DNA from: Prochlorococcus sp. AG-670-O17
Lineage (GTDB): Bacteria; Cyanobacteriota; Cyanobacteriia; PCC-6307; Cyanobiaceae
NCBI GenBank assembly: GCA_003211315.1
Contig: QCTC01000002.1
Span: 1-64,000, forward strand
Reading direction: 5' to 3'
Length of the DNA: 64,000 bases
The notes beneath the pieces were generated by a model. The model was not told the DNA's origin. It did not search any database and saw only the letters and a list, made by a program, of their open reading frames with translations. Shown in pieces: positions 4,539 through 23,527 of the stretch (positions are counted from its first letter, which is position 1; every line of letters begins with the position of its first letter). A program made the translations under genes and the position numbers.

Positions 4539-6125
4539 ATGAGTAAAAAATTACTAAAAAAAGAGAGAGATCCTTCAATATTAATACTAGATTTTGGATC
4601 TCAATATTCTGAATTAATTGCAAGGAGAATAAGAGAAGCAGATGTATTTTCTCTTGTAGTTAGTAACTTTACCTCTATAAAGGAGATTCAAGATATAAAT
4701 CCAAAAGGGATTATTTTAAGTGGTGGCCCAAGTTCTGTTTATGAAGACAATGCACCTAATTGTGATGCAAAGATTTTTGACTTAGGGATTCCAGTTTTGG
4801 GTATATGTTACGGAATGCAATTAATGGTTAAAGAATTAGGAGGTGAAGTAACTCCAGCAATTCATAAAGCTGAATATGGAAGAGCTCCAATAAATATCGA
4901 TTGTGAAAGTGAATTGCTAACTAATGTCCAAGATAAATCCATTATGTGGATGAGTCATGGAGATTCTATAAATAATTTGCCTGAAGGATTTATTAAAATT
5001 TCTCATACAGAAAATACCCTGCATGCTGCAATATCAAATAAACAAAAGAAATTATTTGGTGTTCAATTTCATCCTGAAGTTATTCATTCAGAATTCGGAA
5101 TGACAGTTATTAAAAACTTTGTTTATTCTATTTCTAAATGTAAAGCCGATTGGACAACTGCAACTTTTTTAGAAGAAACAATTCCACGAATTAAGCAACA
5201 AGTAGATGATAAGAAAGTTTTACTTGCTCTTTCTGGTGGCGTAGATTCATCAACTCTCGCTTTTCTTCTCAATAAAGCTATTGGTAAACAGCTTACGTGT
5301 ATGTTTATTGATCAAGGCTTTATGAGAAAAGGGGAACCTGAATTTTTAATGGAATTTTTTGATAAAAAATTTCATATAAAAGTTGAATATATTAACGCTA
5401 GGGAAAGATTTATTAATAAACTAAGTGGAATAACTGATCCAGAAGAAAAACGCAAGATTATTGGTAGAGAATTTATTAGAGTTTTTGAAGAAGAGAGTAA
5501 TAGACTAGGTCCTTTCCAATATTTAGCTCAAGGGACTCTTTACCCAGATGTTATTGAGAGTGCTGGAACGAATTTAGATCCTAAGACCGGTGAGCGAATC
5601 GCAGTAAAAATAAAAAGCCATCATAACGTAGGCGGTCTGCCAAAAGATTTACAATTCAAATTAGTTGAACCATTAAGAAAACTTTTTAAAGATGAAGTAA
5701 GAAAGGTTGGGGGTGCTTTAGGATTGCCAGATGAAATTATAAAAAGACATCCATTTCCTGGTCCTGGCTTAGCAATAAGAATTTTGGGTGAAGTTTCTCA
5801 TGAAAAACTAAACTGTTTGAGAGATGCAGACTGGATAGTAAGAGATGAAATAAAAAAAGCAGGTCTTTATAATCATATTTGGCAAGCATTTGCCGTACTT
5901 TTACCTGTTAAGACTGTCGGGGTAATGGGAGATAAAAGGACTTATGCTTGGCCAATAGTTTTACGATGCGTATCAAGCGAAGATGGTATGACGGCTGATT
6001 GGTCGAGAATTCCTTATGAAACCTTAGAGAGAATTTCTAATAGAATTGTTAATGAAGTAGAGCAGGTTAATAGAGTTGTTTTCGATATTACTAGTAAGCC
6101 TCCAGGAACAATTGAGTGGGAATAA
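4539..6125 (+). CDS. guaA: GMP synthase (glutamine-hydrolysing)
   Basis: A protein of 528 residues that converts XMP to GMP with glutamine and ATP. The N-terminal class I glutamine amidotransferase has the nucleophile Cys in GICYGMQLM and His/Glu in QFHPEV. The ATP-pyrophosphatase domain has the P-loop [11 protein letters not shown]. The C-terminal dimerisation domain ends in KPPGTIEWE. The last codons (GGA ACA ATT GAG TGG GAA TAA, 6105-6125) occur again about 6.9 kb downstream at 13051-13071, so the 3' end of this gene appears to be the attachment site of the adjacent element. The gene itself is intact. Confidence 0.97.
6105..6125 (+). repeat. left attachment-site repeat (end of guaA)
   Basis: GGAACAATTGAGTGGGAATA plus the final A of the guaA stop codon. 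It matches 13051-13071 at 19 of 21 positions. The two mismatches are third codon positions (GGA/GGG and ACA/ACT), so both copies encode Gly-Thr-Ile-Glu-Trp-Glu-stop. Confidence 0.8.
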
Positions 6126-6165: not shown

Positions 6166-6236
6166 TTTCACGTAGAATATTTACTACCTATTTGCAATGG
6201 TTTTCGATGGCGGTCTTTCACGTAAGTTTCACGTGA
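6166..6236. repeat. left cluster of TTTCACGT repeats
   Basis: Three copies within 71 bp: TTTCACGTAG (6166-6175), TTTCACGTAA (6216-6225) and TTTCACGTGA (6227-6236). A matching cluster lies just inside the right end of the element. Position and repetition fit arm-type binding sites of a recombinase or its directionality factor; this role is inferred. Confidence 0.65.
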
Positions 6237-6384
6237 TGCAAAAAAGTCCGTCTCTATAGAGAAATCATAAAATTTTATTAAAAATAAAAAAAGATACACA
6301 AAGTGTTTACCTTCAAGAAATTTAAGTTTTATAAAGGTTGTCATTTAGCACATAAATGAGAATAAAATAATTTACTTCAAATAA

Positions 6385-6416
6385 GTGTGTATAAGGGTGT
6401 ATATGTGTGTTACTAT
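6385..6416 (+). promoter_or_regulatory. GTGTGT double box upstream of mreB
   Basis: Two GTGTGT boxes at 6385-6390 and 6405-6410 (20 bp apart, about two helical turns), then ACTAT at 6412-6416, which could be part of a -10 element. The mreB start lies 40 bp further on. The same arrangement, 27 of 36 bases identical without gaps, occurs on the minus strand at 10312-10343 upstream of the murA-like operon. The rest of the 330 bp between guaA and mreB is AT-rich and shows no gene. Confidence 0.6.
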
Positions 6417-6455
6417 AAAAAGAAGTATTTAAATTTAGTAATTTTTAGTAGGTAT

Positions 6456-7508
6456 ATGTTTTGGAATAGATTTCAATTTTCTAGAGACATAGGTATTGAC
6501 TTGGGTACTGCCAATACTCTTATTCATGTATCTGGGAAAGGCGTAATTCTGGAAGAACCTTCTGTAGTAGCTATGGATTTAGAAGAGGGAACTCCTTTGG
6601 CAGTAGGTGAAGAAGCAAAATTAATGCTTGGAAGAACCCCAGGAAATATAAGAGCAGTAAGACCTCTAAGGGATGGGGTTATTGCAGACTTTGACGCAGC
6701 GGAACAAATGATAAAAACTTTTATTCAAAAATGTAATGAAGGAAAGGGTCTTTTAGCTCCAAGAATAGTTATTGGTATTCCAAGTGGCGTTACCAGTGTT
6801 GAACGAAGAGCAGTTCGAGAAGCAGGATTAGCAGGGGCACGGGAAGTCTATTTAATCGATGAACCTGTAGCTGCCGCAATAGGAGCTTCTTTGCCAGTAA
6901 CGGAACCAATTGGAACTATGATCGTTGATATTGGCGGTGGAACAACTGAAGTAGCAGTATTGAGTCTTGGAGGAACAGTTGTAAGTGAATCTCTTCGAAT
7001 AGCAGGAGATGAAATAAATGAATCAATAGCTACCTATCTTAAAAAAAAGCATAATATGGTTGTTGGTGAAAGAACATCAGAAAAGATAAAAATTAAAATA
7101 GGTTCTGCTTTCCCTGATGACAGTTTTGACAATACATCTTTTGAAGTTAAGGGATTACACTTATCTTCCGGTTTACCAAGATCTATTGCTTTAACTGCAG
7201 GAGAAATTAGAGAGGCTATGACTGATCCTCTTAGTAAAATAATTGAAGCTATAAAAAGAACTCTCGAGCGAACTCCTCCTGAATTAGCGGCAGATATTGT
7301 TGAGAGAGGAATCATGCTCGCGGGAGGTGGAGCTCTAATAAAGGGAATTAATGATTTAGTAACTCAAGAAACTGGAATTTTTACTCACATAGCAGAAGAT
7401 CCATTGTTATGCGTAGTTAATGGCTGCGGAAATGTACTTGATGATTTCAGAAGACTTAGGAGGTGTGTAGACACGGTTGATTTAGGAACTAATTCAATAA
7501 GGACTTAA
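6456..7508 (+). CDS. mreB: MreB-type actin homologue, stand-alone, inside the element
   Basis: A protein of 350 residues if started at ATG 6456; the frame is open for 23 more codons upstream, but that stretch (YKGVYVCYYKKKY) is intergenic in character and covers the GTGTGT boxes. Nucleotide-binding actin motifs are present: GIDLGTANTL near residue 13, IPSGVTSVERRAV, IVDIGGGTTEVAVLSLGG and GIMLAGGGALIKG. MreB polymers guide lateral wall synthesis with MreC, MreD, RodA and PBP2. No mreC or mreD follows, unlike the usual cyanobacterial arrangement, and the gene sits between the guaA repeats, so it is probably a second, acquired copy (inference). Residues 215-245 look less conserved than the rest. 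Confidence 0.9.
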   Translation: MFWNRFQFSRDIGIDLGTANTLIHVSGKGVILEEPSVVAMDLEEGTPLAVGEEAKLMLGRTPGNIRAVRPLRDGVIADFDAAEQMIKTFIQKCNEGKGLLAPRIVIGIPSGVTSVERRAVREAGLAGAREVYLIDEPVAAAIGASLPVTEPIGTMIVDIGGGTTEVAVLSLGGTVVSESLRIAGDEINESIATYLKKKHNMVVGERTSEKIKIKIGSAFPDDSFDNTSFEVKGLHLSSGLPRSIALTAGEIREAMTDPLSKIIEAIKRTLERTPPELAADIVERGIMLAGGGALIKGINDLVTQETGIFTHIAEDPLLCVVNGCGNVLDDFRRLRRCVDTVDLGTNSIRT

Positions 7509-7525
7509 TTACTTTTCTGATGAAT

Positions 7526-7541
7526 TTTTTACTAGTAAAAA
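7526..7541. terminator. palindrome after mreB, possible terminator
   Basis: TTTTTACTAGTAAAAA, a perfect 16-base palindrome 18 bp after the mreB stop. The stem is AT-rich and weak, so termination is only possible, not shown. Confidence 0.3.
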
Positions 7542-7609
7542 CTAGATAAAAAATCATACTTTAATAAAAAAATTCTTTCTTTTAATATCCACTGAGAAAC
7601 AATTTAAAA

Positions 7610-7768
7610 ATGAATCAAGAGCAAAGAAAGAAATTACCTAATAAAAAAATAATTCGCTCAGCAAAATTTGAAGCAAAAGAACAATTTACCAAATCTGCAT
7701 TAGAAAATTTAAAAAATGAAAATGAAAGAATTGTTAATTCATTAAAAGAATCTGGTGAAATCGATTAA
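7610..7768 (+). CDS. small basic protein, 52 aa
   Basis: ATG 7610 to TAA 7768, 52 residues beginning MNQEQRKKLPNKKIIRS. Very hydrophilic and Lys/Glu/Asn-rich, predicted all helical in its second half (ENLKNENERIVNSLKESGE). It lies about 100 bp after mreB on the same strand. I do not recognise it; composition matches its neighbours. It could be a small accessory to the upstream gene or a spurious frame. Confidence 0.45.
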   Translation: MNQEQRKKLPNKKIIRSAKFEAKEQFTKSALENLKNENERIVNSLKESGEID

Positions 7769-7829
7769 TTAAATAAAGAACTTTCTACATGATTTATTAA
7801 AGCCTAAACGAAGAAAAATTTAAGATTTA

Positions 7830-8186
7830 TTATTTTTCTAATAAATAAAATTTCTCTTCACCAACTTTGTCTGGTTTCACTATTTTACAACCTTTATCTT
7901 TTTCTAAATCGCAATCTTTCGAGGCAGCAACTGTTTTCCATGAACAAACTTTTTCTTCTGAGTATTCTTGTTTAATCGTCCACCCATCGTTGATATACTT
8001 TTCGAGATTACTATTTTCTCCACATGAAACTGTAATTTCAATACTATTTTCTTTTTTAATACTTTCTTCTGATGATTGTATTCCAAAACTGTTTTTAATT
8101 TCAGTCGCTTTTTTCTCCAATATTTTGCAACCGCCAACTAGAAATAGGATCATAAATATATAAAGTAATTTTTTATATTCTTTCAT
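7830..8186 (-). CDS. small lipoprotein, last gene of the murA-like operon
   Basis: A protein of 118 residues with a type II signal peptide: hydrophobic YIFMILFLVGGC with the lipobox LVGGC and acylated Cys at residue 20. The mature part contains four further cysteines (VSCGENS, VCSW, DCDL, GCKI), which may form two disulphides outside the membrane. Its ATG overlaps the stop of the MurA-like gene (ATGA), so the two are translationally coupled. Function unknown; the operon context suggests the cell envelope. Confidence 0.75.
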   Translation of the reverse strand: MKEYKKLLYIFMILFLVGGCKILEKKATEIKNSFGIQSSEESIKKENSIEITVSCGENSNLEKYINDGWTIKQEYSEEKVCSWKTVAASKDCDLEKDKGCKIVKPDKVGEEKFYLLEK

Positions 8187-9808
8187 TTATCTATCATGCA
8201 AGTATTAAATTTTCTATTCGCTGTTTCTGTAAAGCCAAGATCCAAAAACTTTATGTAGTCACTATTTTTGTCCTTACATATTTTTTCTTTGTTTTCAATT
8301 TGTATTTTTCTCTGTTCTTGAATTAATATTTGATTTCTGAAGTTCTCGATAAATTTATAAATATATGGAATAGTTGCTATGAAGAATCCAATAAAAAATG
8401 AAAAAGCAAATGCCGAAGTATATTTTTTAGAGTTATTTTTAAGACTAATTTTTGCAAAATAATTATTTAGTTTAAACATAATTTTAATTTTTTTTTTAAT
8501 TACTATCGCTGCTCCAATTTCTTGTAATTTTGTAGAGAAATTTTCGTATCCTCTTTCTAAATGCTCTACCCCTCCAATCAAAGTTTTCCCACCTGCTGAA
8601 AGTCCTGCAAGAGCCAATGCAGCCGAAGCCCTTAAATCAGATCCTAGAATTACACTTCCTTTTAAGTTTTCAACCCCGACTACTGTTGCAATATTATCTT
8701 TTAAAGTAATGTTTGCCCCCATACGATTTAGCTCTTTAACATGATGCATTCTATTTTCAAATACTGTTTCTTTAATTTTTGAAATACCATTTGCTGTTGC
8801 CATTAAAGCCATAAAAGGTGCCTGTAGATCAGTTGGGAAACCAGGAAATGGACTTGTCGTCATATCAACTGAATTTAAAATTTGATTGGGAATGATTTTT
8901 AAACAAAAATCTGAATATTCGAACTTGCAGCCACAAAGTTCTAGTTTGTTAATTACTGCTTTTAAGTGATTTGGTTCGCATGGGAAAAGACTAATTGTTG
9001 ATCTTGTTATTGCCGCAGCAAGTAAAAAAGTACCTGCTTCAATTCTGTCAGGTATTACTGTGTAATCGCATCCTTTTAGGGATTCAACTCCTTCAATTGT
9101 TATACATTCAGATCCCGCACCTTTTATTCGTGCACCCATTAGATTCAACATGTTTGCTAAATCTACAATTTCTGGCTCCTCTGCTGCGTTGTTTAATATA
9201 GTTTTCCCTTTAGCTAAAGATGCTGCCATTAATAAAGTCTCAGTGGCACCTACACTTTTGCATTTAAAATTGATTGATGATCCCAACAATCTTTTTTTGG
9301 GATTAATTACTTTAGCTATTAAATAATTATTTCGGTATTGAAATACAACTCCTAATTTTTTCAGTGAATTTATATGTTCATCGATTGGTCTGGATCCTAT
9401 CGAACATCCTCCCGGTAAGGGTATCTTAGCTGTTCCAAATCTTGCAAGGATTGGACCAATACAAAAGAAACTCACTCTAAGGGCATGATATAAATCAAAA
9501 AATAAATCTTGAGGTGGAATGATAATTTCTTTAGTATTTATTGTTAATTGATTTGTATTCGATTTTATATTTATACCCATTGCAATTAATAATTTAGACA
9601 TAATTGCAACATCTGAAATTTGAGGAACATTAAAAAGATTTATTTCGCCTTTAGAAAGAATTGACGCTGCCATTAGGACTAGAGCAGAATTTTTAGCACC
9701 ACTAATTTTTAAATGCCCTTCAAGGGGGTTGCCTCCTTTTACTTCGATATAATTTTTGAAAAAGTAATCGACTCTAGGGGGTTGAAGAGTTTTATTTTGT
9801 ATTTTCAT
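8183..9808 (-). CDS. murA: MurA-like enolpyruvyl transferase fused to a membrane-anchored tail
   Basis: A protein of 541 residues. Residues 21-440 are a full UDP-N-acetylglucosamine 1-carboxyvinyltransferase, the first committed step of peptidoglycan synthesis: SGAKNSAL near residue 37 carries the substrate Lys, PLPGGCSIGSRPIDEH carries the catalytic Cys135, and GFPTDLQAPFMAL and LRASAALALAGL are present. Residues 444-541 are extra: a segment starting with Met (MFKLNNYFAKIS), a membrane helix (about 466-486) and a charged tail with two Cys. The join is at ten consecutive A bases; eleven would end the enzyme with TAA. It is second in a three-gene operon. Because it lies in the guaA element, it is probably a paralogue of the chromosomal murA (inference). 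Confidence 0.85.
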   Translation of the reverse strand: MKIQNKTLQPPRVDYFFKNYIEVKGGNPLEGHLKISGAKNSALVLMAASILSKGEINLFNVPQISDVAIMSKLLIAMGINIKSNTNQLTINTKEIIIPPQDLFFDLYHALRVSFFCIGPILARFGTAKIPLPGGCSIGSRPIDEHINSLKKLGVVFQYRNNYLIAKVINPKKRLLGSSINFKCKSVGATETLLMAASLAKGKTILNNAAEEPEIVDLANMLNLMGARIKGAGSECITIEGVESLKGCDYTVIPDRIEAGTFLLAAAITRSTISLFPCEPNHLKAVINKLELCGCKFEYSDFCLKIIPNQILNSVDMTTSPFPGFPTDLQAPFMALMATANGISKIKETVFENRMHHVKELNRMGANITLKDNIATVVGVENLKGSVILGSDLRASAALALAGLSAGGKTLIGGVEHLERGYENFSTKLQEIGAAIVIKKKIKIMFKLNNYFAKISLKNNSKKYTSAFAFSFFIGFFIATIPYIYKFIENFRNQILIQEQRKIQIENKEKICKDKNSDYIKFLDLGFTETANRKFNTCMIDK

Positions 9809-9811
9809 AAA

Positions 9812-10075
9812 TTAAAAGTCTTCAAGGTTTGTCATTGATGAAGAACAATATCGTTTTTGAGAAGCTAAATCCCCGATTTCCCAGCAACTTTTTATTTCAA
9901 CATTATTTTCAGGAGATGAAAACTTTATTATTAATGGTGATTGATTTGTATTAGTTAAATCGAAGGCATTAACACTTTTGTTCCTACCGAGAGATGAAGC
10001 TTCCTGTTTTGTTTGTTCTAAAAAAGCTAAAGGAAGAAAAAATAGAAGCGTTGTTAATACAGTTTTCTTATTCAT
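9812..10075 (-). CDS. small secreted protein, first gene of the murA-like operon
   Basis: A protein of 87 residues with a signal peptide (MNKKTVLTTLLFFLPLAFLE, cleavage perhaps after QEASS). The mature part has two Cys (KSCWEIG and RYCSSS) that could pair. Its stop is four bases before the MurA-like start, so the genes are co-transcribed. It has no recognised family. The three products of the operon would be a secreted, a cytoplasmic/membrane and a lipid-anchored protein. Confidence 0.65.
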   Translation of the reverse strand: MNKKTVLTTLLFFLPLAFLEQTKQEASSLGRNKSVNAFDLTNTNQSPLIIKFSSPENNVEIKSCWEIGDLASQKRYCSSSMTNLEDF

Positions 10076-10311
10076 TTTTAATTACTTTGAATAATTCATT
10101 TTCAAAATGATTCATTATTTCTGATGTCTCAAAAATAAAGATTTTAAGATTTGATCAGTCCAAGTATTAATAGATTGCTTTTTAAGAAAGCATTACTTTC
10201 TAAGGTTTTTAACTGAGCAAATAATTGTTTCACTGAAGAATTAAATAAATGCTAAAAAAACCTTTGACTGTTGTGATCCCCATCACCACTGCCTCGCAGA
10301 TGTGTCTCTTA
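10076..10311 (-). other. long leader between GTGTGT promoter and murA-like operon
   Basis: About 235 bp without a convincing gene. Read on the minus strand it begins with a less AT-rich stretch that includes the perfect hairpin GTGAT-GGGG-ATCAC (10271-10284 region), followed by a run of seven T; later come a TGCTTT/AAAGCA hairpin and a CATTTT-G-AAAATG hairpin close to the start codon. It may be a structured 5' leader or a small RNA. I can match it to no known riboswitch. Confidence 0.35.
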
Positions 10312-10343
10312 ATAGTTACACACTTATACATACTATAACACAC
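10312..10343 (-). promoter_or_regulatory. GTGTGT double box upstream of the murA-like operon
   Basis: On the minus strand, GTGTGT at 10343-10338 and 10323-10318 (20 bp apart), then ACTAT at 10316-10312. Spacing and most bases equal the site upstream of mreB. The second box lies within TATAAGTGTGTA (10328-10317), repeated exactly in opposite orientation at 10451-10462. Confidence 0.6.
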
Positions 10344-10450
10344 TTTGAATATTTGTTTGTTATTTGGATATCATGATATAACCTATAAATAACAATAAAC
10401 ATTTAAAGTTAATTTGCCGGATTAGTATTAATAAATACTATTTGTTATAC

Positions 10451-10462
10451 TATAAGTGTGTA
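10451..10462 (+). promoter_or_regulatory. single TATAAGTGTGTA box upstream of the RHH gene
   Basis: An exact 12-base inverted copy of 10317-10328, 30 bp before the ATG of the ribbon-helix-helix protein and overlapping a -10-like TATACT (10446-10451). This position suits autoregulation. The spacer between the two boxes holds a further short palindrome (AGTATT-AATA-AATACT, about 10424-10439). Confidence 0.55.
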
Positions 10463-10492
10463 TCGTTTTCTGTAATTTACATTAATCAACTA

Positions 10493-10972
10493 ATGCCTAC
10501 TAAGCTTGATAGGGTACAGGTTCTTTTTCAGAAAGATTTATTTAAAAAGCTTAAGGTAATTGCAAAAATTGAGCGCAGATCGTTATCTAGTATGGTTGGA
10601 AGCATTGTAGAAGATGCAATGAATTCTAAAAAATATCAATCTCTTTTATCGAAGGCAAAGTCAGATGATTTAAAATCAAAAATTGATCAAAGTAAACTAT
10701 TAATTAATGAAATTTTAAAATCTAAGAGTTCAAATCAATCAGATATTGATGAAAATTCTAAATTAAAACAAATTGAAGATATACTTTCATTAATATCAGA
10801 ATCCAATAAAGAATCATTAGAGGAACCAGTGGGAAAAGATTTATTATTAGTAGAAGAAGCTTTGAAACCAGACGGTTTAATTGAAGAATTAGAATTGGAA
10901 ACAGATTATAAGATTAATAAAATGAATGTAATGCTCAGTAAAATTAATAAAAATAAGGATTTAAATGTTTAA
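10493..10972 (+). CDS. ribbon-helix-helix (Arc/CopG-like) DNA-binding protein
   Basis: A protein of 159 residues from ATG 10493 (MPTKLDRVQVLFQKDLFKK...); the frame is open 17 codons further upstream, but that part covers the TATAAGTGTGTA box. Residues 1-48 have the RHH pattern: a beta strand with alternating polar residues (DRVQVLF), helix A (KDLFKKLKVIAKIE), a turn with RRSLSS, and helix B (MVGSIVEDAMNSKK). The remaining 110 residues are acidic and coiled-coil-like. RHH dimers bind short repeated boxes; the GTGTGT boxes in front of this gene, mreB and the murA-like operon are obvious candidate operators (inference). Confidence 0.7.
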   Translation: MPTKLDRVQVLFQKDLFKKLKVIAKIERRSLSSMVGSIVEDAMNSKKYQSLLSKAKSDDLKSKIDQSKLLINEILKSKSSNQSDIDENSKLKQIEDILSLISESNKESLEEPVGKDLLLVEEALKPDGLIEELELETDYKINKMNVMLSKINKNKDLNV

Positions 10973-10990
10973 ATCAAGAGATTCAGAGTT

Positions 10991-11191
10991 ATGTGGATAG
11001 GAAGAATTTGCTTGTTTGGATGGTTAAGTTCATATATTTCAGGTTTTTTCATGGAACCTATTTCTCACCGAAAGTATGTTGCATTTTTAGAAAAAAAATT
11101 ACTTCAAGCATCAAGATTTCTGCCGTTTGGAAATTATAGTTTAAGAAAACTCATGAAAAAAGTATTAAATTCGACATTAAGAGATAAATAA
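10991..11191 (+). CDS. small hypothetical protein, 66 aa
   Basis: Starts with ATG 18 bp after the RHH gene and ends one base into the start of the next gene, so it belongs to the same transcript. The N-terminus is hydrophobic (WIGRICLFGWLSSYISGFF) and could insert in a membrane; the rest is basic (KKLLQASRFLPF, LRKLMKKVLN). No family recognised. Confidence 0.5.
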   Translation: MWIGRICLFGWLSSYISGFFMEPISHRKYVAFLEKKLLQASRFLPFGNYSLRKLMKKVLNSTLRDK

Positions 11192-11505
11192 TGAATCAAT
11201 TTGAAAAAATGGAAGAGAAAATGAATGAGTGGCAGAGCGGAATAAGAATTCTCTACAAAGATATCCAAACAATCCGTAACTGGACAGATGAGCAGGTTTG
11301 GAAAGAACTTGAAAATGAGATAAAAAGAATTACTCCTGAGAGTCAATATGGTGAGGATGACTTGGCTTGGACCAGAGAAATTATTACATCAAAAAGAGAT
11401 GTTACTTTATGGGAAGCGGTAAGACTTACTATTAGATTTAAACATTCAACGCCTCTGTTAGATGCTCTTGGTAATCTTAGAGCTCGAGATAAATCTGGAA
11501 CTTAA
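11191..11505 (+). CDS. small helical protein, tandem paralogue 1
   Basis: A protein of 104 residues; its ATG shares one base with the preceding stop. Predicted helical. The core NWTDEQVWKELENEIKR ... EDDLAWTREII ... TLWEAVRL matches, position by position in spacing, the next gene (NNYDKKQAWDKLKIELL ... QNDLEWVEDLL ... TTEEACRF). The pair therefore looks like a tandem duplication. No known domain recognised. Together with the RHH and 66-residue genes it forms a same-strand cluster. Confidence 0.6.
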   Translation: MNQFEKMEEKMNEWQSGIRILYKDIQTIRNWTDEQVWKELENEIKRITPESQYGEDDLAWTREIITSKRDVTLWEAVRLTIRFKHSTPLLDALGNLRARDKSGT

Positions 11506-11569
11506 ATATCTATTATGTTCTTTTATAAGCAAATAGAAAATAAGTTTTTTTCAAGAATTTATTTATAGT

Positions 11570-11842
11570 TTGACTAAATTTATAGATACATCTGGTTTTG
11601 ATAATGTCGAACAAGTCAGAAAATGGTATCTAGGTATTCAATCAACTTTTAAGCAAATGCAGCAACAAAATAATTATGATAAAAAACAAGCTTGGGATAA
11701 ATTAAAAATAGAATTACTTAAATCAGTTGCAAAAGAAGATTTTGTACAGAATGATCTTGAATGGGTTGAAGATCTCCTTCTTCATGAAATAATTCCAACT
11801 ACTGAAGAAGCCTGTAGATTTGAAAAAAAATATCCTAATTAA
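11570..11842 (+). CDS. small helical protein, tandem paralogue 2
   Basis: A protein of 90 residues starting at TTG. It shares with the upstream gene the spacing W-x-x-L, D-L-x-W and E-A-x-R, but lacks the C-terminal LDALGNLRARDKSGT. The low similarity suggests an old duplication or independent acquisition of two family members. Function unknown. Confidence 0.6.
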   Translation: MTKFIDTSGFDNVEQVRKWYLGIQSTFKQMQQQNNYDKKQAWDKLKIELLKSVAKEDFVQNDLEWVEDLLLHEIIPTTEEACRFEKKYPN

Positions 11843-11890
11843 ACTCCTTTAATTGATGCGCTTGCCAAAATCTTCTAATTTATTTTTGAT

Positions 11891-12829
11891 TTAAATAACA
11901 CTTACCCCTGTAAACGTTTTGATATTATCTATAGTTTCTTTTGGAGTTTTTATAAGATCTTCATATGTAACTTCTATTAAATTGTCCTTAGGAATAAGAT
12001 TTTTCATTATTTGCCATTTATCTAATATGAAGGATCTAGTAAACTTTGCATCTTTCTCTGCGTTCCCAAGATATGGAATAAAACCAAATTCTTTATTAAA
12101 TGATTTGATAGATTTTTCTATACTTTTCACATGATCGTATTTACGTTCAATGTAAATAAATTTTGAGTTGGGAAATAACTCAAGTAATAAGTCAACTCTC
12201 GTTGTAAATGCTGGAGCTTTATTGATAAAAACTTTTCCAGGTAAACCATCATGAATCCATGCCCATTCAAGAAGTAATTTTAATTTTTTTTTGAAATCTA
12301 ATGTAGCTTTCCATTTGTACCATCTTTCTAAATCCTTAGATAATGACTTTCCAAGACCAATTGATGTTGGAGGATGTTCGCAACTCAATCTCATTAATGC
12401 AATATCTAACTCTTGAGGTCCCTCTGCTAATAATGGGACCCAATCAAAAAATCTATTTTTATAAGATGGTATAAATTTGCGAAAAAGTTCTTTAAATATT
12501 AAGGCTGCCTGAGGGCAACATGAAAACGTATTTTTTATTGTAGCTGCTTTAGTAGCTTTAACTATTTCTGTGTGGAGGTATGTTGTTCCACTTCTCCATG
12601 CACCTATAATAAAAATTGGATCAGGCATATTCTTTGGCTTCTTGTAAAGAATTTTTTGCAACCAATAAAGAGGTTCAGCCAACCAACCGAGTGCAATATT
12701 CTGGAATAAATAAAAAGAAATAATAGGAAATCTATTAGCTTTTTTTAACAACTCAAACTGAACAGAAGGTCTTAAGCATCCAATAATAATTAAGCGTGGA
12801 TTGAAAAACAATAATCTATTTATATCCAA
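11891..12829 (-). CDS. sulfotransferase family protein
   Basis: A protein of 312 residues. The 5'-phosphosulfate-binding loop is clear (PIFIIGAWRSGTTYLH, residues 71-86), and a 3'-phosphate-type segment lies near residue 225 (KFIYIERKYDHVKSI), followed by the dimer-like RSFILDKW and VTYEDLIKTP. Enzymes of this family move sulfate from PAPS to a hydroxyl or amino group, often on cell-surface sugars. Islands of marine picocyanobacteria frequently carry them with envelope genes. Here it is the last gene before the right end of the element. Acceptor unknown. Confidence 0.85.
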   Translation of the reverse strand: MDINRLLFFNPRLIIIGCLRPSVQFELLKKANRFPIISFYLFQNIALGWLAEPLYWLQKILYKKPKNMPDPIFIIGAWRSGTTYLHTEIVKATKAATIKNTFSCCPQAALIFKELFRKFIPSYKNRFFDWVPLLAEGPQELDIALMRLSCEHPPTSIGLGKSLSKDLERWYKWKATLDFKKKLKLLLEWAWIHDGLPGKVFINKAPAFTTRVDLLLELFPNSKFIYIERKYDHVKSIEKSIKSFNKEFGFIPYLGNAEKDAKFTRSFILDKWQIMKNLIPKDNLIEVTYEDLIKTPKETIDNIKTFTGVSVI

Positions 12830-12963
12830 AATAAAGATTATCTATGGAACTTTCGATAAGTCAATCAGTACTTATTGCTTTTGTAAGATACTCAAAATAA
12901 TCTTTACATCTCTATGAAAGTAAAGTAATAAATATTTTTTCTTATGGTTCGCTGCCTACTAGG

Positions 12964-12997
12964 TTTCACGTGGGTTTTACGTGGCGGAATACGTGTT
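12964..12997. repeat. right cluster of TTTCACGT-type repeats
   Basis: TTTCACGTGG (12964-12973), TTTTACGTGG (12975-12984) and AATACGTGTT (12988-12997). They mirror the left cluster at 6166-6236 and lie 54 bp inside the right attachment repeat. A TATAAT hexamer (12997-13002) follows immediately. Confidence 0.6.
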
Positions 12998-13050
12998 ATA
13001 ATATGTTCAGACCCATTGATATAACTGTCTTTTTTATTAACCTTTTTGGA

Positions 13051-13071
13051 GGGACTATTGAGTGGGAATAA
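13051..13071 (+). pseudogene. right attachment-site repeat, remnant of the guaA 3' end
   Basis: GGG ACT ATT GAG TGG GAA TAA encodes the last six residues of GuaA plus the stop, with no guaA sequence before it. It differs from the intact gene only at two synonymous positions. It is the expected footprint of the original guaA end displaced by an integrating element. Confidence 0.8.
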
Positions 13072-13116: not shown

Positions 13117-13830
13117 ATGGATGAAACTATTAAATTAAGTAGGTCTACTGTTGAAAAATATCTTAATTGTCCTAGATGTTGCGTTCTTGATAAAAAGCAT
13201 AAAATAAAACCTCCATCATTACCATTTACTTTAAATATTGCTGTAGATAATTTATGTAAAAATGAGTTTGATTATTATCGTGATAGACAGGAATCTCATC
13301 CTTTATTTATTGAGCATAATATCGATGCTATACCTTTTAAACATAAAGATATAGATACTTGGAGAAGCAATTTTAAAGGAATTAGATATAAATCTACTGA
13401 ACATAATTATGATTTTGGTGGTGCGGTGGATGATGTCTGGCAAAAAAAGAATGGAGAGTTGATTATCGTTGATGTAAAAGCAACATCAAGAAATAATTTT
13501 GATTGGTTTGAAACTTTTAATAAATATGATTATGCAAAAGCATATAAAAGACAATTAGAAATGTATCAGTGGTTATTTAGAAAAAATGGTTTCAAAGTTG
13601 CAGATGAGGCCTATCTTCTTTATTTTAATGGGAAAAAGAATGAGAAATTTTTTAATAATCAGTTAAAGTTCGATGTGCATTTTATTAAGTTAGATTGTTC
13701 TTCAGCATGGGTAGAAGGCAAAGTTATTGAAACAGTAAAACTTCTCAGATCTAATTTGTTCCCTTCACCATCTTTTAAATGTGAATATTGTAATTATTTA
13801 AAAAAGCGTTGGCAGTTGTCAAAAAATTAA
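13117..13830 (+). CDS. Cas4/RecB-like PD-(D/E)XK nuclease
   Basis: A protein of 237 residues. The nuclease core is visible: D105 in FGGAVDDVW, then D119-V-K121 in ELIIVDVKATS, then QLEMYQWLF (the RecB-type Gln-x-x-x-Tyr motif IV). Cysteines at 18, 21 and 22 (CPRCC) and at 222 and 225 (CEYC) are placed like the iron-sulfur ligands of Cas4/AddB-type nucleases. There are no CRISPR repeats or other cas genes nearby, so it is an orphan with a likely role in DNA repair or end processing. It is the first gene outside the element. Confidence 0.8.
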   Translation: MDETIKLSRSTVEKYLNCPRCCVLDKKHKIKPPSLPFTLNIAVDNLCKNEFDYYRDRQESHPLFIEHNIDAIPFKHKDIDTWRSNFKGIRYKSTEHNYDFGGAVDDVWQKKNGELIIVDVKATSRNNFDWFETFNKYDYAKAYKRQLEMYQWLFRKNGFKVADEAYLLYFNGKKNEKFFNNQLKFDVHFIKLDCSSAWVEGKVIETVKLLRSNLFPSPSFKCEYCNYLKKRWQLSKN

Positions 13831-20866: not shown

Positions 20867-23527
20867 ATGAAATCTCAAACTAAAAACACTCCAATTACAG
20901 GTGATGAAATAAGAAAAGAATTTTTAAATTTTTACCATGAAAAATTTCATAAAATCATTCCAAGTGCATCTTTAATTCCTGATGATCCTACAGTTATGCT
21001 CACGATCGCTGGAATGCTGCCTTTTAAGCCAGTTTTTTTAGGATTGCAAGAAAGGCCATCAAAAAGAGCCACATCTAGTCAAAAGTGTATAAGAACAAAT
21101 GATATTGAAAATGTTGGAGTTACAGCTCGACACCATACCTTCTTCGAGATGCTTGGTAATTTTTCTTTTGGAGATTATTTTAAGAAAGAGGCTATTGAGT
21201 GGGCTTGGGAATTAGTGACTGATATTTACGGACTTTCTGCTGAAAATATAATAGTGAGCGTGTTTCATGAAGATCATGATTCGGTAAAGATTTGGAAAGA
21301 AGATATTGGGATTGATCCACAAAGGATAATTAAGCTTGGAGAAAAAGATAATTTCTGGTCTTCAGGGAAAACAGGTCCTTGCGGACCTTGTTCAGAATTA
21401 TATTATGACTTTAAACCTGAAAAAGGTCTTCAGAATATTGATTTAGAAAATGGTGATCGTTTTATAGAATTTTATAATCTTGTATTTATGCAATATAACC
21501 GTGACCCTGATGGTCAATTGACAGATTTGAAATACAAAAATATTGATACTGGAATGGGGCTTGAAAGAATGGCTCAAATATTGCAAAAGAAGAATAATAA
21601 TTATGAAACAGATTTGATTTTTCCAATTATTCAAAAAACTTCTGAGATCTCCAAAATTGATTATTATTCTTCAGATGAAAGAACCAAAATCTCTTTAAAA
21701 ATTATTGGAGATCATATAAGAGCAGTTATACATTTAATTTCTGATGGGGTAGTAGCAAGTAATCTTGGAAGGGGATACATATTAAGAAGACTGATTCGAA
21801 GAATGGTTAGACATGGAAGGTTGTTAGGCTTAAAAAATGAATTTTTATCGAAACTTGCAAGTGTAGGTATTAAATTAATGCAAGAGAATTATCCAGATTT
21901 AAAAAATAATTGTGATCATATATTGAGTGAGATAAAAATTGAAGAAATAAGATTTAGAGAAACTCTTGATAGAGGTGAGAAATTATTAGATGAATTGATT
22001 TCATCGGGCCAGAAAATGATTACTGGGTTTAAAGCATTTGAACTTTATGATACTTATGGATTTCCATTAGAACTAACAGAAGAAATTGCTCAAGAAAACA
22101 ATATTGGTGTTGATGTTAAGGGGTTTGATAAAGAAATGTCTGCACAAAAAGAAAGAGCTAAAGCTGCTTCTCAGATTATTGATTTGACATTAGAGGGTTC
22201 ATTAGAACGAGAAATAGACTTATTTGATAAAACTCTTTTTAATGGTTATGATTCACTCGATTCAGATGCAGAAATTAAGGGTATATTTTTGGAATCAACC
22301 TTGGTTAAGCAAGCAAGTGAAGGGCAGAAAGTTTTAATTGTCCTTGATCAGACTTCTTTCTATGGAGAATCTGGAGGTCAAGTTGGTGATATTGGAACGA
22401 TATTCTCGAATGATCTAGAGGTTTTAGTTGATAACGTCATACGAAAGAAAAACGTTTTTCTGCATTATGGAATAGTTAAAAAAGGAATATTAAGTCTGGG
22501 ACAAAAAGTTAAAACTAAAGTAAATGATTTGGCTAGAGCTAAGGCTGCTGCAAATCATACTGCTACCCATTTATTGCAATCTGCTCTCAAAGTAGTTGTT
22601 AATGAAAGTGTTGGACAAAAAGGCTCATTAGTCGCATTTAATAAATTACGATTTGATTTCAATTCTTCTCAACCTATTACAAAAGATCAAATTTTTAAAG
22701 TTGAGACTTTAGTTAATTCTTGGATTTTGGAAAATCATTCTCTAAAAATTAAAAACATGGCCAAGAGTGAGGCTCTCGAGAGAGGGGCAGTGGCTATGTT
22801 TGGAGAGAAATATGATGATGAAGTAAGAGTTGTTGATGTGCCAAGTGTTTCGATGGAACTATGTGGTGGAACTCATGTAAAAACCACATCTGAATTAGGT
22901 TGTTTTAAAATAATTAGTGAAGAAGGTATTTCAGCGGGCGTAAGAAGAATCGAAGCATTGTCAGGGCAATCAGCTTTTGAATACTTTAGTGATAAAAATT
23001 CTCTTGTAAGTCAACTTAGTGATTTGTTAAAAGCAAATCCTAATCAACTCCTAAACAGGGTTAATTCTTTGCAATCAGAGTTGATTAATAAAAATAAAGA
23101 AATACAAAAAATGAAGGATGAAATTGCTTATTTTAAATACTCTTCGCTAAGTTCTTCTGCAAATAAAGTTGGTTTATTTTCGCTGATTATTAGTCAACTT
23201 GATGGACTAGACGGAAATTCTCTACAATCTGCAGCATTAGATTTAACTTCTAAATTGGGAGATAAGTCGGTTGTGATTCTTGGAGGAATACCAGATAAGG
23301 AAAATAGAAAATTGTTATTTGTTGTCTCTTTTGGGGAAGACTTAGTTAAAAAAGGTATGCATGCAGGTAAATTAATTAATGATATTTCACGTATTTGCTC
23401 GGGGGGAGGTGGAGGTAAACCTAACTTTGCACAGGCAGGTGCTAAAGATATTGATAAATTAAATGATGCTTTGGAATATGCAAGAAAAGATTTGAGGTCA
23501 AAGCTCCTTAGTTACTCTGATAAGTAA
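20867..23527 (+). CDS. alaS: alanyl-tRNA synthetase
   Basis: A protein of 886 residues, the expected length. The class II catalytic core has motif 1 near the N-terminus and the Ala-specific [17 protein letters not shown]. The editing domain has the zinc ligands HTATHLL and CGGTHVK. The C-terminal oligomerisation/C-Ala domain ends with a Gly-rich [16 protein letters not shown]. It charges tRNA-Ala and removes mischarged Ser/Gly. Its 3' end overlaps the convergent speA end by 16 bp. Confidence 0.97.

Follow-up and report, generated by a model that had tools for sequence, protein, structure and literature searches.

Genomic islands that keep both attachment sites (attL and attR) after losing their integration genes are described as cis-mobilizable elements (CIMEs; PMC5704250) and as the integrase-less ssrA islands of Dehalococcoides (PMC3146451). 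The 3′ end of guaA is targeted by other islands and integrative mobilizable elements, including ATE-1, GIsul2, and an IncP island of Brucella (PMC5704250; PMC9376610). In Prochlorococcus, tycheposons are reported to insert at tRNA genes and to have a recombinase (cited in PMC10872708 and PMC11389934). Integrase-less islands with intact ends, guaA islands, and arm-type sites are each already known separately. Among open-licence papers, none was found that connects guaA with islands in Prochlorococcus, and none on arm codes matched between helper islands and their derivatives. Here, we describe a 6.9-kb element at the 3′ end of guaA in Prochlorococcus sp. AG-670-O17, within the first 64,000 nucleotides of contig QCTC01000002.1 (assembly GCA_003211315.1; this whole stretch is called the window). 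Short octamer repeats are clustered just inside both ends of the element. Very probably, the octamers are arm-type sites of a guaA-specific family of tyrosine integrases, and the element is an internal-deletion derivative that kept its ends and lost its integrase.

The element lies between guaA on one side and a PD-(D/E)XK nuclease gene on the other. Its boundaries, flanks, and end features are as follows (offsets of left octamers are from the G of GAGTGGG):

4539–6125, + strand: guaA (GMP synthase), the target gene; reading frame still intact after insertion
6111–6125, + strand: attL core ATTGAGTGGGAATAA, the last guaA codons and stop, supported by empty-site comparison
6166–6173, + strand: putative left arm-type octamer TTTCACGT (exact), at +52
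6216–6223, + strand: putative left arm-type octamer TTTCACGT (exact), at +102; +113 in sister elements, a shift equal to one lost 11-bp unit
6227–6234, + strand: putative left arm-type octamer TTTCACGT (exact), at +113; +124 in sister elements
6250–6266, + strand: conserved GTCTCTATAGAGAAATC block just inside the left arms, also in integrase-bearing elements of other octamer classes
12964–12971, + strand: putative right arm-type octamer TTTCACGT (exact), at −96
12975–12982, + strand: putative right arm-type octamer TTTTACGT, one mismatch to TTTCACGT, at −85
12987–13006, + strand: conserved right-end segment, not an arm octamer, found in other octamer classes too
13057–13071, + strand: attR core ATTGAGTGGGAATAA, supported by empty-site comparison
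13117–13830, + strand: PD-(D/E)XK nuclease family gene, backbone flank, directly 3′ of guaA in empty-site genomes

Both attL and attR are retained, and no integrase or other tyrosine recombinase is present in the element, nor was a homologue of the guaA integrase (described below) found in the genome, which is 82% complete. In these features, and in having neither integration nor transfer genes, the element resembles a CIME. The initial annotation overlooked the absence of an integrase, as well as the many octamer codes that share one architecture. No tRNA was found near the guaA integration site of the element. The tmRNA of this genome is of the permuted cyanobacterial type, and the relatives reached through the integrase search are Prochlorococcus single-cell genomes, both in keeping with a Prochlorococcus origin.

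Three octamer copies had been noted at each end (6166–6236 and 12964–12997). Those on the left are all exact and on the + strand, but there are only two on the right. The supposed third right copy, GAATACGT (12987–12994), was ruled out because its spacing from the adjacent copy is 12 bp rather than 11 bp and because it is part of a AATAYGTGTTATAATATG-like right-end segment that elements with very different octamers also retain. Likewise, the left cluster does lie 40 bp inside its attachment repeat, but the 54 bp given for the right cluster does not hold, as the last true copy ends 74 bp inside. Sister copies of the element have four left octamers, one 11-bp unit having been lost from the window copy, and two or three right octamers. 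Exact TTTCACGT occurs five times in the window versus 1.1 expected, with the fifth copy isolated at 23385. It is the sole octamer containing all four bases that has three non-overlapping copies within 75 bp in the window, and no such cluster appeared in 60 simulated windows. A genome-wide count gave a divided answer: the single octamer is unremarkable (19 copies in 1.39 Mb; 38 for the reversed control), but exact matches to its 11-bp paired form, TTTYACGTNNGTTTYACGT, are confined to the two ends of the element. Inside the left arms (6250–6266 in the window, and in integrase-bearing elements), a conserved CTCTATAGAGAA palindrome and nearby GTAGAGA repeats occur regardless of octamer class and are a possible excisionase or promoter site.

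The association with guaA extends across the genus. The paired octamer has 82 matches in 46 of 266 genus genomes (5 for the reversed control), and of 29 additional loci sampled, 28 have the pair within ∼150 bp of a GARTGGGAR repeat, the copy of the guaA 3′ end. Throughout Prochlorococcus and marine Synechococcus, octamer pairs are at fixed distances from such repeat copies, and the elements they mark occur singly or as tandem arrays 3′ of guaA. At the family level, the paired form is present in 26 of 270 good genomes and 4 of 34 genera. As a control, we used 60 guaA loci from genomes not already collected via the TTTYACGT pair, a set hence depleted in that class. Nineteen of these loci are empty, and none of the 19 has an octamer pair over the equivalent interval; such a pair is present at 21 of the other 41. 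The motif is thus neither equally frequent in the backbone nor absent from other guaA elements, the two outcomes that would have spoken against the initial proposal of arm-type sites at functional ends, and that proposal is supported by these pairs and by the covariation with the integrase given below.

Elements at guaA share one architecture and differ in the octamer that fills it. The left end has two octamer pairs with an 11-bp period, at +52/+63 and +113/+124, and the right end has one pair or a triple about 65–107 bp before the core. The same layout recurs with about a dozen other octamers. To compare ends, 105 elements were delimited. Paired octamers at the two ends agreed perfectly at best alignment (16 of 16 positions) in 47 of them, and 59% scored at least 15 of 16 versus 15% of mismatched-element pairs; shuffled ends never exceeded 13. 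When octamers were assigned to families, both ends had the same family in 50 of 51 clear cases, relative to a mean of 6.7 and a maximum of 17 in 10,000 permutations. A given octamer accompanies many different cargos, and TPR proteins, a single type of cargo, occur with many octamers; common ancestry of entire elements therefore does not account for the matched ends. The layout also occurs in miniature. Fourteen units of 138–148 bp are each situated between two guaA cores, with one arm pair as left and right arm at once (L034 4386–4525; L067, L138, L167, L202, L215, L217, L222, L232, L236, L237, L252, L255, and L257; L222 has a single copy). Among these units, one backbone sequence is combined with either TTTTACGT or TTTGTCAC, depending on the genome.

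Integrases are encoded by a minority of guaA elements. In G358 and G429, which represent two related genera, a tyrosine recombinase of ∼468 aa starts ∼200–300 bp inside a left end with TTTCACGT arms. Relatives of this protein with 36–57% identity are encoded just 3′ of guaA in five genus genomes (Prochlorococcus AH-716-K03, AG-347-G20, AG-402-M15, AG-355-P18, and AG-321-E21); Synechococcus AG-679-A04 has another. Further guaA integrases, some broken, are present in other genera. Across related elements, the integrases are of the tyrosine type and ∼460–490 aa in length, and they are encoded about 200 bp inside the left end. Most integrase-bearing left ends have the same layout with differing octamers (TTTCCCGT, TCTCACC, TTTGTTGC, ATCACACA, ACTACCCC, and TTTCACC), and the layout is less regular in AG-321-E21 and the near-identical G380. 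Among the 46 genus genomes with the pair, no motif-bounded element has a PF00589 integrase, and none of the 21 complete elements of the 60-locus control set has an integrase. Only 6 of the 105 delimited elements carry one, including one (G182) shortened by a chance core match, and most elements would therefore have to rely on a helper with a matching code. No guaA integrase was found in phage, plasmid, and viral-contig collections.

Integrase-bearing guaA elements share an HUH replication protein (PF23343), a ∼315-aa protein, and a DUF5906 helicase (L185 3442–7414, L173 7743–9494, and L186 12376–14367). They have no recognised conjugation set and look like integrative rolling-circle replicons. 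Helpers often also encode a serine resolvase and, because of these three kinds of protein (HUH replication protein, helicase, and resolvase), may replicate after excision.

Other candidates were considered and set aside. A 389-aa core tyrosine recombinase (L140 3539–4708, between hemH and cobO), considered as an integrase acting in trans, has only slight similarity to the guaA integrase and is present in the majority of genomes searched. Most Prochlorococcus genomes searched have one similar copy of 389–393 aa, with an arm-domain-like N-terminus and a hemH-cobO-pyrH neighbourhood. Tyrosine recombinases of ∼500 aa downstream in G009 and G137 are at a second site, outside the guaA array. This second integration site is beside a second flavodiiron gene near alaS (L120 5038–6561 and L123 15121–16599), and in G137 a nearby protein has an HUH-like HSH motif. 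Matches to the motif in viral contigs (17, none with a guaA core, and of varied GC) were taken as chance. No tRNAs were found near distantly related recombinases (L189, L190, L285, and L286), and no link to tycheposons was established.

The octamer code follows the N-terminus of the integrase. By sequence and predicted fold, guaA integrases have N-terminal arm-binding, core-binding, and tyrosine catalytic domains. The N-terminus is predicted to form a four-strand-plus-helix domain (pLDDT mostly 78–90), and the whole model matches the Cre, lambda, and Tn1549 integrases. Across 11 non-redundant integrases, octamer similarity correlated with identity of the arm domain, taken as residues 1–108 (rho 0.59, a value reached by 0 of 5000 permutations), but not with that of the remainder of the protein (rho 0.16, p 0.21). 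The partial correlation for the arm domain was 0.57. It is mainly because of this relationship that we read the octamers as arm-type sites.

We infer that the integrase binds the octamers and that excision or integration can take place in trans. The N-terminal domain would hold both ends of an element, in the manner of lambda integrase, and the catalytic domain would cut and join at core ATTGAGTGGGAATAA. The octamer varies by element lineage, is identical at both ends of one element, and tracks the arm domain of the integrase. The window element would then be mobile only with a TTTCACGT-specific integrase supplied by another element. The N-terminus of this helper integrase would engage the arm pairs while its core-binding and catalytic domains engage the guaA core, leading to excision or insertion of the integrase-less element.

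Patterns of relatedness suggest that the window element moves between genomes. Copies are present in G066, G067, G072, and G142, and G055 has a mosaic with a different left end. Relative to the window, these five are 96.7–99.7% identical over aligned cargo, above the identities of guaA (88.3–95.7%) and of upstream genes (87–94%); for the element itself, identity is 96.7–98.3% where that of guaA is 88–96%. In the close relative G033 the site is empty with the window flanks rejoined exactly. Another possible route of spread is homologous recombination through the flanking DNA. Just after the left arms, G142, G066, G067, and G055 have a decayed integrase start (55 bp, scoring above 1000 shuffles), and no relic is detectable in the window copy. 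Similarly, the TTTCCCGT element L138 has a 45-residue integrase relic that is closest to the TTTCCCGT-class integrase. The mosaic in G055 (L041 5272–12212) appears to result from end exchange, as it has the window cargo between a TTTCCCGT/TTCCCCGT left end and a TTTCACGT right end.

Several observations weigh against integrase arm sites and loss of the integrase as the explanation. No genus genome combines an integrase with TTTCACGT arms, as both known cases are in other genera of the family, and no integrase was found for TTTTACGT, TTTGTCAC, TTTCCCTC, TTACACGT, and some other octamers. Ends disagree in 10 of 84 cases once single copies are counted. Octamer families were read from the same data, which makes the paired-octamer match score the freer test, and related elements are not independent, such that shared descent inflates both end-match tests. 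In the structure model, confidence is low for the catalytic half.

Among alternatives, the most serious is that the octamers mark dead remnants, the ends of old insertions, and that integrase-less elements no longer move by site-specific recombination. Neither the window genome (82% complete) nor the genus has an integrase of the right class, and the window copy is losing arm units, as expected of remnants. Nevertheless, five pairwise comparisons show the element to be more similar between genomes than guaA and the flanks are, presence or absence differs among closely related genomes, and matched ends persist in elements with unrelated cargo; we consider this explanation unlikely. Less credible still is that an excisionase (recombination directionality factor) or other DNA-bending protein binds the octamers and the integrase binds elsewhere. 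Excisionase sites are also short phased repeats in arms, but they are usually on one arm while the octamers are on both, and a separate protein would need to be co-inherited for octamer similarity to track the integrase N-terminal domain. No excisionase gene was identified, which leaves its sites unassigned and in that respect favours this alternative. Given the tie to its N-terminus, the integrase is the better candidate for octamer binding.

The position of the left block immediately 5′ of the integrase gene, and the HUH-type replication proteins encoded by integrase-bearing elements, would suit operators for a repressor of that gene or iterons for the replication protein of the element. We find such roles highly improbable, as the same octamer is at the right end, far from int and at a near-constant distance to the core, and elements of 0.7–2 kb without either gene retain both blocks. 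Chance clustering of a common octamer would be compatible with the genome-wide abundance of the single copy, but it is refuted by the genus-wide distribution and disfavored by the paired form, matched ends, simulated windows, and empty sites, leaving it with essentially no probability.

The genes carried by the window element have no evident role in integration or transfer:

6456–7508, + strand: extra MreB
7830–8186, − strand: small lipoprotein-like open reading frame (ORF), no family match
8183–9808, − strand: extra MurA with a C-terminal extension
9812–10075, − strand: 87-aa ORF, no family match, kept in sister elements
10490–10972, + strand: ribbon-helix-helix (CopG-like) protein
11191–11842, + strand: two small ORFs of 104 and 90 aa, no confident family
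11891–12829, − strand: sulfotransferase (PF13469)

Cell-shape and cell-wall genes (MreB and MurA with its C-terminal extension) are carried as mobile cargo in this element. In other guaA elements, the cargo comprises TPR proteins, methylases, SNF2/PLD helicases, and restriction genes of types I, IIG, and III. Where the cargo is large, it often consists of restriction-modification and similar defence-like genes (L042 4208–9927, L037 3776–11134, L201, L252, and L254).

More broadly, guaA may be the site of an address-code mobilome in marine picocyanobacteria, in which integrase-less islands of 0.7–8 kb, with cargo of restriction systems, TPR proteins, and extra cell-wall genes, are moved in trans by rare helpers, each island only by those whose integrase arm domain recognises its octamer, and switch helper by end exchange or by octamer mutation within a conserved backbone. 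We see this wider scheme as having about an even chance of being correct. Many islands in these genomes lack a recombinase, and matched codes suggest a way in which a helper could mobilise integrase-less cargo islands. The end code predicts which integrase can act on which island, such that helper-island pairs can be named from sequence. The integrases also form a natural series with one core target, differing arm specificity, and matched sites, which is useful for the study of arm-domain recognition. With restriction-modification and further defence-like genes among the cargo, the system may reshuffle defences against phages in the most abundant photosynthetic bacteria.

Several known systems resemble guaA elements in part. 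Like tycheposons as reported, guaA elements are tyrosine-recombinase elements of the same genus with cargo in hypervariable islands; unlike them, they are at the 3′ end of guaA and mostly without a recombinase. ATE-1, GIsul2, and the Brucella IncP island are similar by description in target gene end and tyrosine integrase, but carry their own integrase, which the window element lacks. CIMEs and the Dehalococcoides islands likewise form tandem arrays at the 3′ end of one gene; the latter differ in using a serine recombinase, and arm codes matching helper and derivative are not described for either in the passages considered. As in systems with lambda-type (heterobivalent) tyrosine integrases (lambda, L5, and Tn916/Tn1549), short direct repeats distinct from the core flank it, and the guaA integrase joins a tyrosine-recombinase catalytic domain to an N-terminus predicted to be an arm domain. 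Unlike those systems, the left arm at guaA consists of two pairs 61 bp apart, most elements have arms but no integrase, and a single core target is common to about a dozen octamers, of which at least six are arm codes linked to an integrase.

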